Shown here in pieces: positions 12,901 to 42,900 of a DNA stretch of 64,000 nt. A model generated the notes under the pieces. It did no database searches, was not told the origin of the DNA, and worked only from the letters and a program-made list of their open reading frames with translations. Position numbers and translations under genes: made by a program. Every line of letters starts with the position of its first letter. Within the stretch, counting starts at the first letter, position 1. This DNA is from Heliocidaris erythrogramma (Eukaryota; Echinodermata; Echinoidea; Camarodonta; Echinometridae), in the NCBI GenBank assembly GCA_025617745.1, contig CM046864.1, positions 3,839,205-3,903,204 of the forward strand. Direction: 5' to 3'.

Positions 12901-15900
12901 GATAAGATGGGAGTATTATAAGATTAACTTACCTGATTGGCACGTATTTCCAGTATAACGAGCAGCACAGGCACACGTGAAGGAGTCAACTCCATCAGTA
13001 CAAATTCCCCCATTCATACAGGGATTAGGAGAACAGTCGTTGATATCTGTTTTGGTTTAATCAAGGATAAAGCGATAAGGATGATGATGGAAACTACAAA
13101 AATAAAATACACCAAACCCAATCCAACAGAATTTGGTGCAGCGTGTTTTATATAGAATCAGAATTATTCTCAATTGGCTTTAAGTTTATATGGCATTTGA
13201 ACAATTGTAATATTTGTTCAAAGAAAATTACAAAAAAGCCTTGCAATATACTTCAAATCCATTTCCCCCAACAGAAATAAACTTTCAAAATAAATATGGT
13301 GAATTGATTTGCTGCAGTCTATAGAAATTTATGGAAAGTTCTTTTAAAAAGTCGACACAGAAAGACGCAATTCGTTTAAATTCCTGCATCATTAGTTCAC
13401 TAACTCACAAACAAAACATGAACTTATTCAAATGATCACTATTTTACCTAAACGAAACCATTCAATTTTGGTACATAAAAAAAATAAAGGCATTTGTTCT
13501 GAAAAAGTCAACACCAAGTGAAGTAATTTATTCGAATTTTCACATATTTAGTTTAATGTTAATTACAAAATATGAATATTTAAGCAAAAAAATAATTTTT
13601 TGTACTTACTTGTTTCACACATAGTTCCAGTAAAACCCGTAAGACATGCACATGACTGTCCGGGGTTTGTGCATGTTCCGCCATTCTGACAAACGGAAGA
13701 ACCACACTCAACTAAAAAAAAAAAAAAAAAAATATGTGTGTATTTAGTCATGTGGCCAAAATCCTCATGGGCGTATTCTGCCAAGGCCTGTTGCCTGAAA
13801 TTTCTTGTCCAAGTGAGTCAGCAAAGTAGGGTGAAGAGGAACGTTTTATTCGCTGCCAAAATTTGCTACATGGCAGGGAGTGTAGCAATCATGATACATG
13901 TATATATATATATTATATATATAATGATATTTCATAACCGCGTGTTGGAAAAGCATGAAGAGAGATACAATTAATGAATTCCAGAGAAGACATTGGTAAT
14001 GCATTGAATTCCAACTTTTATATTTATTTTCACCAAATTTTCGATCCTCACGGATCTTCCTCAGGGTAATGAACAAAGTGAAATATGTATGTGAAGCTTC
14101 ACATACATATTTCACTTTGTTCATTACCCTGAGGAAGATCCGTGAGGATCGAAAATTTGGTGAAAATAAATATAAAAGTTGGAATTCAATGCATTACCAA
14201 TGTCTTCTCTGGAATTCATTAATTGTATCTCTATTATATATATATATATATATATATATACCCCAATGGAATACTTATTTGCTTGAAAAAAAGAAACATG
14301 TAGGATCAAAGAAACATCTCTATCAGGTGATATAAACAGATAAATTACATAATACCTGTTGAGCAGGTAGGGTCGGAATAACCAGAAGCACAGGCACAAG
14401 TGAAGGAGTCAATTCCATCAGTACAAATTCCTCCATTCATACAGGGATTAGGAGAACATTCGTTGATATCTGATTCGGTGAAATAAACGTTTTGAAAATG
14501 ATAACAAAATAAGAATATTAATATTTTAAGAATCATTTTTTTTCACTTAACTCTTTCAGTGCCAATGTCACATATATGTGACAGATAGACTTGTCATTTA
14601 TACTCACCGATTGCACAGGAAAGGTATATGGTGGTCAATGTACAGTGCGTATCGAAAAAAAATATACCGAACTTTGGTAGATTCTAATTAAAAATTTATA
14701 ACCTCTGTGAGCTTTAGATTTATTTCATAGTAAAGAGCAACCTATATCCTGTGTAATGATACATAATTCATAACTTTGCTGCCACAGATGACTGAGCAGC
14801 AGGCTTTTCAAAAAGTATTGTAAAAATCCTCTGGTACCAAGTTTGGGTTGAAGCAGCGAATGTGGGTCAAACAATTGCTGAGTTATTTTTAATTGATTTT
14901 GTGTGTTTCAATAGAAAAGGTGTGAAAGTCAACCAAAACTCAAGAAAGGGCTTATTCAAAGCTTAATGTATGATATTTTTGCCATGATAATACTATCTTG
15001 GCTTCACCCGCATCCGTTTTTTTAAAGGTAAGCCTTTTTACTGAGTCATTCAAAATGGACATCATTTATTTGGAAAGCTATCTTTTTTCTTGAAAGTCTA
15101 CTGTCAAGTGCCTTGGTATTTCTCAACACACGTATCCTACTTTTTCTTCTTTTTTAGTCTTTACGGTCAGTTAACCTTTGAGTTCATGTGTTATTCGCAT
15201 AAACACCCGTGTGCACCTTATGCAGGTGGAATGGTGCAATGGACAAAAGAGCAGAGAGTTTTTAGTTATCACGAGAAAAGAAGTTAGAAAGCTGTTAAAG
15301 TAAATTAAAGATTATCATATGGATTGAAACAAGTTCATTTGAAAGCTTAGATACACTGGATCACCTTAAACAATGACGCATTGAAGCACAAATGAGAATT
15401 CATCTTTTAAAATGATTTTAGACACATTCATATGGCTTGACCCACATTCGTTGCATGAGCCCAAACTTGGAACAAGGCGATTTTGACAACACTTTGTAAA
15501 AACCCTCGTGCTCAGTCATCCATGGCAGAAATGTCATGATTCTTTTAATATTTTAAATCATTTATATTCACAGACAACTGAAGATGGGAAGAATGTAGGC
15601 CTTTCCACTATCTCCTTGACCACTAGCAACACTGTACATTACCATTAATTGTCCAGAAACAAGATCTAAAGGTTTAAAAACCCGAAAGAATAACGGTACC
15701 AACCGTTATGTCTGCAAAGATAAATGTTTACAAAATAGCAACCGTCATATAAAAGAAACACCTTTTGAAAGTTGCTTTAAGTCTTCCTACCTGTTTGGCA
15801 TGTACTCCCGGTATAGCCAGCAACACAAGCACAGGTGAAAGAGTCAACTCCATCAGTACAAGTTCCTCCATTAACACAAGGATTAGGAGAACAGTCGTTG

Positions 15901-39900: not shown

Positions 39901-42900
39901 CAACATATTTAAAAATGGCAGCAATATTCAGCATATTTCATTTCATTCATTTAACACGAAGGGCAGCAGAGCTGAATATTTCATGTTTACACAAATAATT
40001 GGCATAACAAATATCATTATATATATTGACACTTATTTAAAAACATGTTAAAAATGGTAAAATGGCAGCAATTTTCAGCATATTTCATCCCCCCAAATGA
40101 GTCGCTCAGATTATTTTCAATAATGGTTTATTTGTATTCGCAATTCATGTACAATACATTTAGCACGAAGGGCAGCACAGCTGAATATTTCATGTTTACA
40201 CGAATAATTGGCATAACAAATATCAAAATCGAATATCATTATATATATATTGACACTTATTTTAAAAACATGTTAAAAATTGTAAAATGGCAGCAATGAA
40301 GATAAAATATGCCCCTCTGATAGTATCTCAAAGACAAATCGTACAATGAATAGGATAGGAACTTATTATTAATGAATCCAATAGTTGTTGCTGATGAGTT
40401 GATCATTTGCTATGGTTAAAAACATAGGCCTATGGCAGCATGTAACTCCTGTCAATTTGTAAAAAAAGTGCTAATCAAATGTAGCTATTCAAAAGACCAG
40501 ATTTTCACCGAAAACAATTAAAATCACGTACTACACGTCCACCAGGATAAAATAAATCACAAAAACTTCCACAACAAAGTGGAAAGAACCGGGGAGAATA
40601 AACAGAAATGCACAGAGAATAAGAAATAGAGGAGAAGCCGTAGGGCTAGGGTAGCCTGAATCGAAATGAATTTGTAGATAAAAAAGGTATCGCGCGCGAT
40701 AGCTAGCTAGCTAGCTATAAGCTATAGAGCCGCCTAGTATACCGTACATAGCCGCTTTCGCAGTAGTAGTTCAAGCGCGCGAAAAATCCCTTGTTGCTGG
40801 GATACGTTGGCTTTGAATATTCATTGCAGGCTCGTACGGATTTGAAGTGAAATGGCAAATAATGGGTCTAAAAGTCTTCTAAAATTCATAAACCTGAAAT
40901 AGACTTTTGGTGAGACGAAGTAATGAGTGTTTTGATTGGCCAAAATATTTCTGCATCTGCAGGCGAAGTTTGGGGTCATCAATCTTTCTAGTTTCTTTCC
41001 TGTCACTATCTGAACTGAAGTTCCTATACTTTACTACAGGGTCAAAACTTCAAGGTCACACAGAATGTGCAGGGGTCAACCAATCATCACCAAAATCTAA
41101 TCGATTCTTTCCTGTCACTTTCTGAACATTCCCTGAAAATTTGGTGCAAATCCGTTCACCCGTTCTCTTGTTATCTTGTACACAAACAAACAAACAAACA
41201 AACATACAAACAAACAAACAAACAAAAAAACAAACATACGGAGCCCTTTACATAACCCTGCCGAACCCTGCCGATTTCATCGGCGTGGGTAACAAACATA
41301 CGGAGCCCTTTACATAACCCTGCCGATTTCATCGGCGTGGGTAACAAACACCTGAACATCTGTATATAAAATGAACAGCAAGCCAGTGTTATATTTTTTT
41401 ACCTGTTTCACATGTACTTCCAGTAAATCCACTAGCACAGTTACAAGTGAAAGTATCTACTCCATCAATGCAACTTCCTCCATTCATACAGGGATTGGGA
41501 GAGCAGTCGTCGATATCTATGTGGGTTAAGTCAAAGTAAGCGTTCATCAGTTAATGAGTTAACGTCTCTACTTTTATAATTCGACATAGTAAAAAATAAA
41601 AATGTGATTCAAACCCATCCACAACGTATTCGATACAGCGTGTTTTTCTTCAAGTTAAAAAGTGCTTTGCTACTTTGCAAGTGAAGGAGTTTGCTCCACC
41701 ATTGCAACTTCCTCCATTTATACAGGGATTGGAAGAGCAGTTGTCAGTGTCTGGGTTAAAAAAAAAATTATGAACTGAATAAAAAAAAATACTAAAAAAT
41801 AGTTTTAGTCTATCATTTGTTTATTCATCTGTATTAGATGAATATTACCCCCCCCCCCCCCCAAAAAAGACAACAAACAACCAAAAACAAAAATGTTCTA
41901 CAAGTTGGTCAATGATAGTCCTGAAATAAAAAACATTATTCTTTAAGATTTAAGATTCAAGATTCAAGATTTCTTTATCTTTATTGTGCAATTCAGATGT
42001 TTTTTTCACAACAAATCTTTCTTTTTGCAGTCATTAAACATTATGCGTTAACACCTGTCACGTCCAAAACAAAATTTAAGACAAATCCTCTTCAAACTCT
42101 CTTATGTGTAAGTTTTAAATCTCATTGTCCATTGTTTGTTATTCTGTCCATCTCACTGACAACAAAAATGTTAATTAGGAAGAATGTATCCTATAATATT
42201 TTCATGAGGACTTTAAAAAAGTGTTTCGGACGTGACATGTTAACAAATCATTCATATTTACTGTATTATGCACATATGAATAACGTTACTTTTCGAAATA
42301 ACCATATATGTCAGTTCATATTCATCCAAAGTACTCAAGTTATGCATGCACAATAATCAAGGTTGCACTGTGATTTTGTGTGATGATGCATGCTAATAGA
42401 CAAAAACCTCTATTTTTTAATCACAAAGGGCAGTTCGATTCCCATTTTCTTTCAACATGAAATAATACAACCTCACACTTATACAATATTCTTCATAGGT
42501 GCAAACACTGGCAGGATATGTTTTCCCCTCATATCATTAATACAGGATAGTGGCATATTGGAATAATAATAATAATAATATATAAGATTTATAAGGCGCC
42601 GAATCTACCTGATGATCAAATGCTCAAGGCGCAACTTGTGCAAAAGATGAAATACATGACAAATAAGCAAAAGTGCAATAGGGGAGGTAGGACATGAAAG
42701 ATAATGGTAATCAATTATAGGCCAAATTAAACAGATACTTTTTAATATTATATTTGAACACTTCAACAGAACTGCTATTTCTAATCCCTTGAGGGAGAGT
42801 ATTCCATATTGACGGCCCAGCATGAGCGAAGGATCGCTCCCCCCATTTTGTGTTAAGCCTGGGAATAACAATAGTGTTTCGAATGTGACATACTTATGTA

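Follow-up and report, generated by a model that had tools for sequence, protein, structure and literature searches.

Repeated four-exon EGF cassettes in a predicted membrane protein gene of Heliocidaris erythrogramma

The window analyzed here, a 64-kb stretch of the Heliocidaris erythrogramma assembly GCA_025617745.1 (contig CM046864.1, here C12; C12:3839205-3903204), carries a predicted gene on the minus strand in which four types of EGF exon, designated STCE, NTCQ, DPTC, and VEC, occur in this order four times between positions 41516 and 13610 of the window. The stalk of the putative membrane protein encoded by this gene probably lengthened stepwise, as a block of several exons was duplicated in tandem and in frame more than once. 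The latest of these events copied a 3.67-kb block with the order NTCQ-DPTC-VEC-STCE, and its junction lies within 15 nucleotides (nt) shared by the unit ends. The array is a case of a domain array growing by whole blocks in which the breakpoint of one step can be read to within those 15 nt.

Four cassettes in one gene model

The four cassettes span positions 41516-37260 (A), 36806-33592 (B), 33138-30286 (C), and 23442-13610 (D). The STCE, NTCQ, DPTC, and VEC exons are 114, 114, 114, and 102 nt long, respectively, giving 444 nt and 148 residues per cassette, and all 16 are bounded by AG/GT splice sites and are of phase 1-1. A first-pass annotation of this DNA had proposed the fourfold order at 13610-41516, the symmetric phase, and growth in steps of 148 residues; the order, the phase, and the step length are borne out by the exons; its further proposal, that any number of cassettes keeps the frame, also holds, because every EGF exon in the gene model is of phase 1-1. 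Within a type, the exons differ at 2 to 6 of 114 nucleotides (STCE), 0 to 15 of 114 (NTCQ), 0 to 5 of 114 (DPTC), and 1 to 5 of 102 (VEC), and the three 114-nt types differ from one another at 18 to 31 positions. The introns of the array are also alignable, over 3.48 kb at 97% and over ~2.2 kb at 82 to 83%. In a search of the 1.06-Gb assembly (26 contigs), VEC had four matches of at least 97%, all in the window, among the best 150 of 2,327 first-look candidates, which were scored.

Phylogenetic analysis of the exons supports grouping by type. The tree was built from 18 of the 20 tabulated exons, without the 41.7-kb remnant and the VEC-kind exon upstream of the array. The four types need three changes on this tree, which is the minimum, and none of 200 shuffles was as low. 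Support was 99/98 for DPTC and 100/100 for VEC plus the distant exon 8985-9086, a fifth member whose position within the group is unsettled, whereas the STCE (86/80) and NTCQ (71/80) groups are not strongly supported; exon 12933-13046 falls in no group. The tree check that had been proposed earlier thus came out as clustering by type, and the clustering by cassette that would speak for independent origins did not occur. Such an independent origin was also rejected by the approximately unbiased (AU) test for four of four cassette clades (p = 5.9e-5 for A, 4.3e-20 for B, 4.5e-35 for C, and 3.5e-43 for D), with sets of identical rows left free in A, B, and C.

The exon model was built by eye and by pattern within the window, past which the gene extends. 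It comprises 36 exons, of which 16 are cassette exons and 20 are other predicted exons, and 1,510 codons with no stops. The domain order is 13 EGFs (in 12 exons), one further EGF, the four cassettes, an EGF exon (X), a calcium-type EGF, a SEA-like domain, an EGF, a putative transmembrane (TM) helix, and a tail, and 32 of the 36 exons are of phase 1-1, the exceptions being the two SEA-like exons and the TM and tail exons. From its sequence, the gene probably encodes a long single-pass membrane protein, and the putative TM exon at 5939-6080 makes an extracellular stalk plausible. In a Pfam scan of ten listed pieces of the window, in which STCE_A and VEC_A were the single cassette exons scored, both were above the PF00008 (EGF) cutoff of 21.5 bits, with 45.2 and 22.1 bits, respectively, and STCE_A scored 14.9 bits with EGF_CA, against a cutoff of 27.

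The calcium-EGF pattern used here was [DEQN]-x-[DEQN]2-C ... C-x-[DN]-x4-[FY]-x-C. The calcium-EGF and ASX-hydroxylation patterns are present in 12 of 12 STCE, NTCQ, and DPTC exons and in none of the four VEC exons. Calcium bound between adjacent EGFs stiffens their joint, which is established in fibrillin and Notch. Each cassette would then consist of three calcium-stiffened EGFs and a VEC domain without the calcium pattern, perhaps with a looser joint before VEC, and each probably lengthens the predicted stalk by an equal step.

The latest duplication and the probable growth of the array

Of 3,066 aligned intron sites, 48 (1.6%) differ between cassettes A and B, or 31 of 2,883 (1.1%) outside a divergent patch at 39940-40230, and the exons shared by A and B differ at 1 of 330 sites, whereas the introns of B and C differ at 334 of 2,494 sites (13.4%). 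Within the patch, positions 40045-40225 of unit A are 85 to 93% alike to unit B, the rest of the unit being ~99% alike. The high A-B likeness starts 18 nt 3' of STCE_C and stops at 40500, ~0.9 kb short of STCE_A. A 15-nt sequence, TATTCAAAAGACCAG, is present at both ends and in the middle of the duplicated region (32992-33006, 36660-36674, and 40486-40500). Around the middle copy, the flank at lower coordinates matches A, whereas that at higher coordinates matches C, and the two form a hybrid junction. This junction lies in the STCE-to-NTCQ intron, and the copied block is therefore NTCQ-DPTC-VEC-STCE (Table 1). STCE_A, outside the copied block, is the most different STCE: it differs from the others at 4 to 6 positions, while any two of STCE_B, STCE_C, and STCE_D differ at 2. 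Joining at shared sequence is seen as 15 nt at three unit ends, the one junction resolved being the latest. The array consists of collinear exon-intron blocks in tandem within one open model, as is characteristic of intragenic multi-exon tandem duplication.

The STCE-first register of the first-pass annotation describes the fourfold order, but as the unit of the latest duplication it is ruled out by the hybrid junction in the STCE-to-NTCQ intron. The first duplication may have used this register, since a founder order STCE-NTCQ-DPTC-VEC-X would need STCE in the lead. The founder itself probably was a single exon resembling NTCQ, of the kind seen in the sister gene near 6.22 Mb described below. 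Further copies would have been added by unequal homologous recombination between matching introns as soon as two copies were present; an exchange in any homologous intron adds a full set of four exons, so that the register depends only on the position of the exchange. Selection, exon-focused gene conversion, or both may then have preserved the likeness of the exons. Two decayed EGF-like remnants on the minus strand flank the array, so its history includes exon loss besides gain. The simple stepwise growth proposed by the first-pass annotation is supported in outline, but the copies differ in age, exons have been lost, and the remaining exons are homogenized or constrained at silent sites.

Table 1. 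Positions of predicted exons, duplicated units, and other features in the window
Feature	Position	Strand	Remark
12 exons encoding 13 EGF domains	44052..63757	-	upstream of array; calcium-EGF pattern in 12/12 exons
EGF exon of VEC kind	43589..43690	-	upstream of array
Decayed EGF-like remnant	about 41673..41760		flanks array
STCE, cassette A	41403..41516	-	outside youngest duplicated block
Unique intron sequence (~0.88 kb)	40501..41379		STCE_A-NTCQ_A intron, starting at duplication breakpoint
Duplicated unit A	36675..40500	-	tandem copy of unit B; upper end TATTCAAAAGACCAG at 40486-40500
NTCQ, cassette A	39299..39412	-	
DPTC, cassette A	38846..38959	-	
VEC, cassette A	37260..37361	-	without calcium-EGF pattern
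STCE, cassette B	36693..36806	-	3' end of duplicated unit A
Duplicated unit B (NTCQ-DPTC-VEC-STCE)	33007..36674	-	3,668 bp; upper end TATTCAAAAGACCAG at 36660-36674
NTCQ, cassette B	35626..35739	-	
DPTC, cassette B	35175..35288	-	
VEC, cassette B	33592..33693	-	
STCE, cassette C	33025..33138	-	3' end of duplicated unit B
NTCQ, cassette C	32113..32226	-	
DPTC, cassette C	31682..31795	-	
VEC, cassette C	30286..30387	-	
Insertion, 6,419 bp	23656..30074		VEC_C-STCE_D intron; 12-nt inverted ends CCCGTTGAAGAC, TTAA on each side
STCE, cassette D	23329..23442	-	
NTCQ, cassette D	15791..15904	-	Ks ~0.48 to other NTCQ
DPTC, cassette D	14356..14469	-	
VEC, cassette D	13610..13711	-	
17th EGF exon (X)	12933..13046	-	directly upstream of calcium-type EGF; resembles single EGF exon of 6.22 Mb paralog
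Decayed EGF-like remnant	about 12436..12517		flanks array
Calcium-type EGF exon	12056..12178	-	downstream of array
SEA-like domain, two exons	10315..11751	-	11606-11751 (phase 1-0), 10315-10549 (phase 0-1)
EGF exon	8985..9086	-	between SEA-like domain and TM
Exon with putative transmembrane helix	5939..6080	-	phase 1-2; judged from sequence alone
Exon of putative cytoplasmic tail	5185..5359	-	

Related genes, larger arrays, and known systems

The SEA-like and TM exons match paralogs on the same contig. In the 6.22 Mb paralog (6198001-6221016, read on its own strand), a pattern scan, which may overlook decayed or unusual exons, found a calcium-type EGF, one EGF exon at 6218416, and a calcium-type EGF equivalent to that at 12056-12178 of the window. 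The 6218416 exon and its downstream intron match NTCQ of A, B, C, and D at 77 to 78% over 217 to 226 nt, which, for this one paralog, suggests that the founder was likely one NTCQ-like exon. In the 4.445 Mb paralog, 4449001-4479000 yielded a single VEC-like exon together with an EGF-like stretch that lacks usable splice sites.

Two longer arrays are located on the same contig. The first, at C12:5424443-5446523 (scanned over 5414001-5454000), has 59 EGF exons, 59/59 of which are 111 nt, open, and flanked by AG/GT. It lies upstream of SEA exons at 5.458-5.461 Mb, with which, from strand and order, it would form one gene; none of 27 TM-tail matches lies near it. It is built of nested repeats with shifts of 2.8, 8.5, and 9.2 kb at 97 to 98%, an example being 5428751-5436001 versus 5437942-5445195, which are 98.3% alike over 7.26 kb. 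The other, at C12:4273790-4314139, ~0.4 Mb from the window, is longer and more regular than the window array and has 93 EGF exons, again all 93 of 111 nt, open, and with AG/GT, among 94 EGF-like matches in 80 kb; its kinship to the window gene is suggested by exon likeness. In a genome search with the 111-nt exon type, all 150 scored matches, the best 150 of 4,363 first-look candidates, fell in these two arrays. Distinct nucleotide versions number 32 among the 93 exons and 22 among the 59, and the mean pairwise dN/dS is 0.53 and 0.43, respectively. The silent p is 0.066 in the 93-exon array and 0.094 in the 59-exon array, and in the 60-nt flanks, the alignments of which are gappy, p is 0.24 and 0.21 downstream and 0.060 and 0.135 upstream. 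In addition to these arrays, a regular short-period run of VEC-like EGF matches is located at C6:22215555-22219888.

With arrays of 59 and 93 exons besides that in the window, exon amplification is recurrent in this contig region, with different exons and unit sizes. These loci could represent a family of stalk genes with satellite-like coding arrays (1, 17, 59, and 93 exons), in which the exons are kept by conversion or selection and array length varies between individuals, an idea that we put forward with considerable reserve; if it were true, the length of a surface protein would itself be a variable trait. The occurrence of 1, 17, 59, and 93 exons in one genome provides a natural series on how symmetric exons set protein length, with which length variation between individuals, and exon homogenization separately from that of introns, can be addressed.

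Intragenic multi-exon tandem duplication is already known, and the window array is a further case; what is particular here is the readable junction, the uneven homogenization of the exons, and the 1/17/59/93 series. In the human nebulin triplicate region (NEB TRI), eight exons are present in three tandem copies spanning 30 kb, and both normal and pathogenic variation in copy number occurs (PMC9109913). In both genes a block of several exons is tandemly repeated inside one gene, but the nebulin blocks are 10 kb with eight exons, whereas the window block holds four EGF exons in ~3.7 kb, with a wide range of copy ages, and is known here from one assembly. Among solved structures, the 148-residue cassette is matched best by a Delta-like 1 chain (4xbm) and by EGF chains of Notch 1. 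Unlike Notch and Delta, the window model ends in a SEA-like domain, an EGF, a putative TM helix, and a tail, and the ten pieces scanned revealed no further domain of Notch or Delta; the gene, which extends past the window, is not assigned to Notch here. The order EGF, SEA, EGF, and TM is that of MUC13-type membrane mucins, and the window model shares it, but the model shows no conspicuous Ser/Thr-rich mucin repeat, and its SEA score is below the cutoff. Class 1-1 modules have reportedly spread by exon shuffling, as is said by Patthy; the EGF exons of the window are such single-domain exons, each flanked by phase 1 introns, and show no difference in principle, the property being used here for growth inside one gene. 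In the titles and abstract openings consulted, mostly outside subscription journals and covering the arrangement, duplication, phase, and conversion of EGF exons as well as EGF-SEA mucins and nebulin, the cassette was not found described.

Exon likeness and alternative histories

Cassettes B and C differ at 3 of 330 sites in NTCQ, DPTC, and VEC together, with one silent difference at 73 silent sites, versus 9.8 expected from the introns (binomial p = 3.4e-4). STCE was omitted from this test, STCE_B and STCE_C being products of the younger event; its inclusion gives 3 silent differences at 96 sites. The exons of cassette D are uneven, with a Ks to B of 0.48 for NTCQ, 0.04 for DPTC, 0.04 for STCE, and 0.09 for VEC (Fisher p = 5e-4 on rounded counts), and the flanks of DPTC_D are ~50% alike to those of B. 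The excess likeness of the exons fades over ~20 to 40 nt into the introns. This exon likeness reflects either conversion among the cassettes or silent sites held by splicing, with rearranged introns, or both.

Several observations weigh against successive duplication in a membrane protein gene as a full account. Among B, C, and D, the deviating copy in the 125 nt 3' of VEC is C in 15 cases, B in 6, and D in 4, whereas the flanks of NTCQ and DPTC have 35 sites at which C deviates and 118 at which D does (Fisher p = 2.4e-6 versus the VEC 3' side). A repeat with 150-nt flanks, including the upstream flank of VEC and excluding STCE, gave C 18 and D 7 on the VEC 3' side and C 40 and D 157 in the others (p = 3.8e-7); gapped columns were dropped from these tallies. 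Since the VEC 3' flank has a different nearest relative, the simple duplication tree is incomplete as a history. Two silent differences persist between STCE_B and STCE_C, although these exons lie immediately within the young unit. The SEA domain scored 15.2 bits (E = 0.024) with Pfam PF01390, under the cutoff of 26.4, and the domain is therefore named SEA-like only. In addition, an assembly duplicate could explain the A-B copy, since its divergence is allele-like, and paired EGF matches with a constant offset or in inverted orientation occur elsewhere in the assembly. These pairs, at C1:6.872/7.146 Mb, C17:36.59/37.53 Mb, C19:32.27/32.53 Mb, and C2:20.23/20.47 Mb, are large segmental duplications or alleles kept twice.

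If the youngest copy (unit A or B) were such an artifact, with two alleles or a graph loop placed in tandem, the real chromosome would have three cassettes. We regard this as unlikely: the A-B intron divergence of only 1.1 to 1.6% is within the allelic range of many invertebrates, but no N run is located by the unit junctions (the window has just one, at 1001-1500), and the contig has other, separate arrays, although these come from the same assembly. At 13%, B and C are too diverged to be alleles, and the amplification itself stands. It is less improbable, though still short of an even chance, that exon likeness is mainly the result of gene conversion among cassettes that are older than their exons look. 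The silent deficit between B and C and the distinct nearest relative of the VEC 3' flank favor conversion, as does the Ks of cassette D, which is high in NTCQ and low in DPTC while the DPTC_D flanks are so dissimilar; the introns of DPTC_D may, however, simply have been replaced, and the gradual fall-off of likeness into the introns also fits constraint on splicing signals and silent sites. In the 93-exon array, moreover, upstream flank p is about equal to silent p, and there is no exon-only effect on that side.

That transposable elements built the array by moving exons is highly improbable. The 6.4-kb TTAA-flanked element lies within the array, and its ends are, as we take them, piggyBac-like; other repeats are present in the introns at 16.5-29 kb. 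However, A and B represent the empty site of this insertion, which is thus most simply younger than the B-C duplication, and the one mapped junction lies in homologous intron sequence, away from the ends of that element. Tandem in-frame duplication, with exons subsequently kept alike, accordingly remains the preferred history.

The introns contain further repeats and open frames. No match to Rfam was found in the whole window at gathering thresholds, and the open reading frames at 18534-19559, 20252-20752, and 17084-17332 matched no Pfam family at E up to 1. The first of these is a 341-codon frame on the minus strand in the STCE_D-NTCQ_D intron, and the stretch 18290-19742 is 79% alike to one near the 6.22 Mb paralog and is therefore probably a dispersed repeat. 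The same intron contains four copies of a ~170-bp tandem repeat at 16574-17185. Upstream of the array, a ~330-bp tandem repeat, with copies roughly 87 to 94% alike, occupies two blocks at 49137-52522 that flank the EGF exon at 50868-50993.

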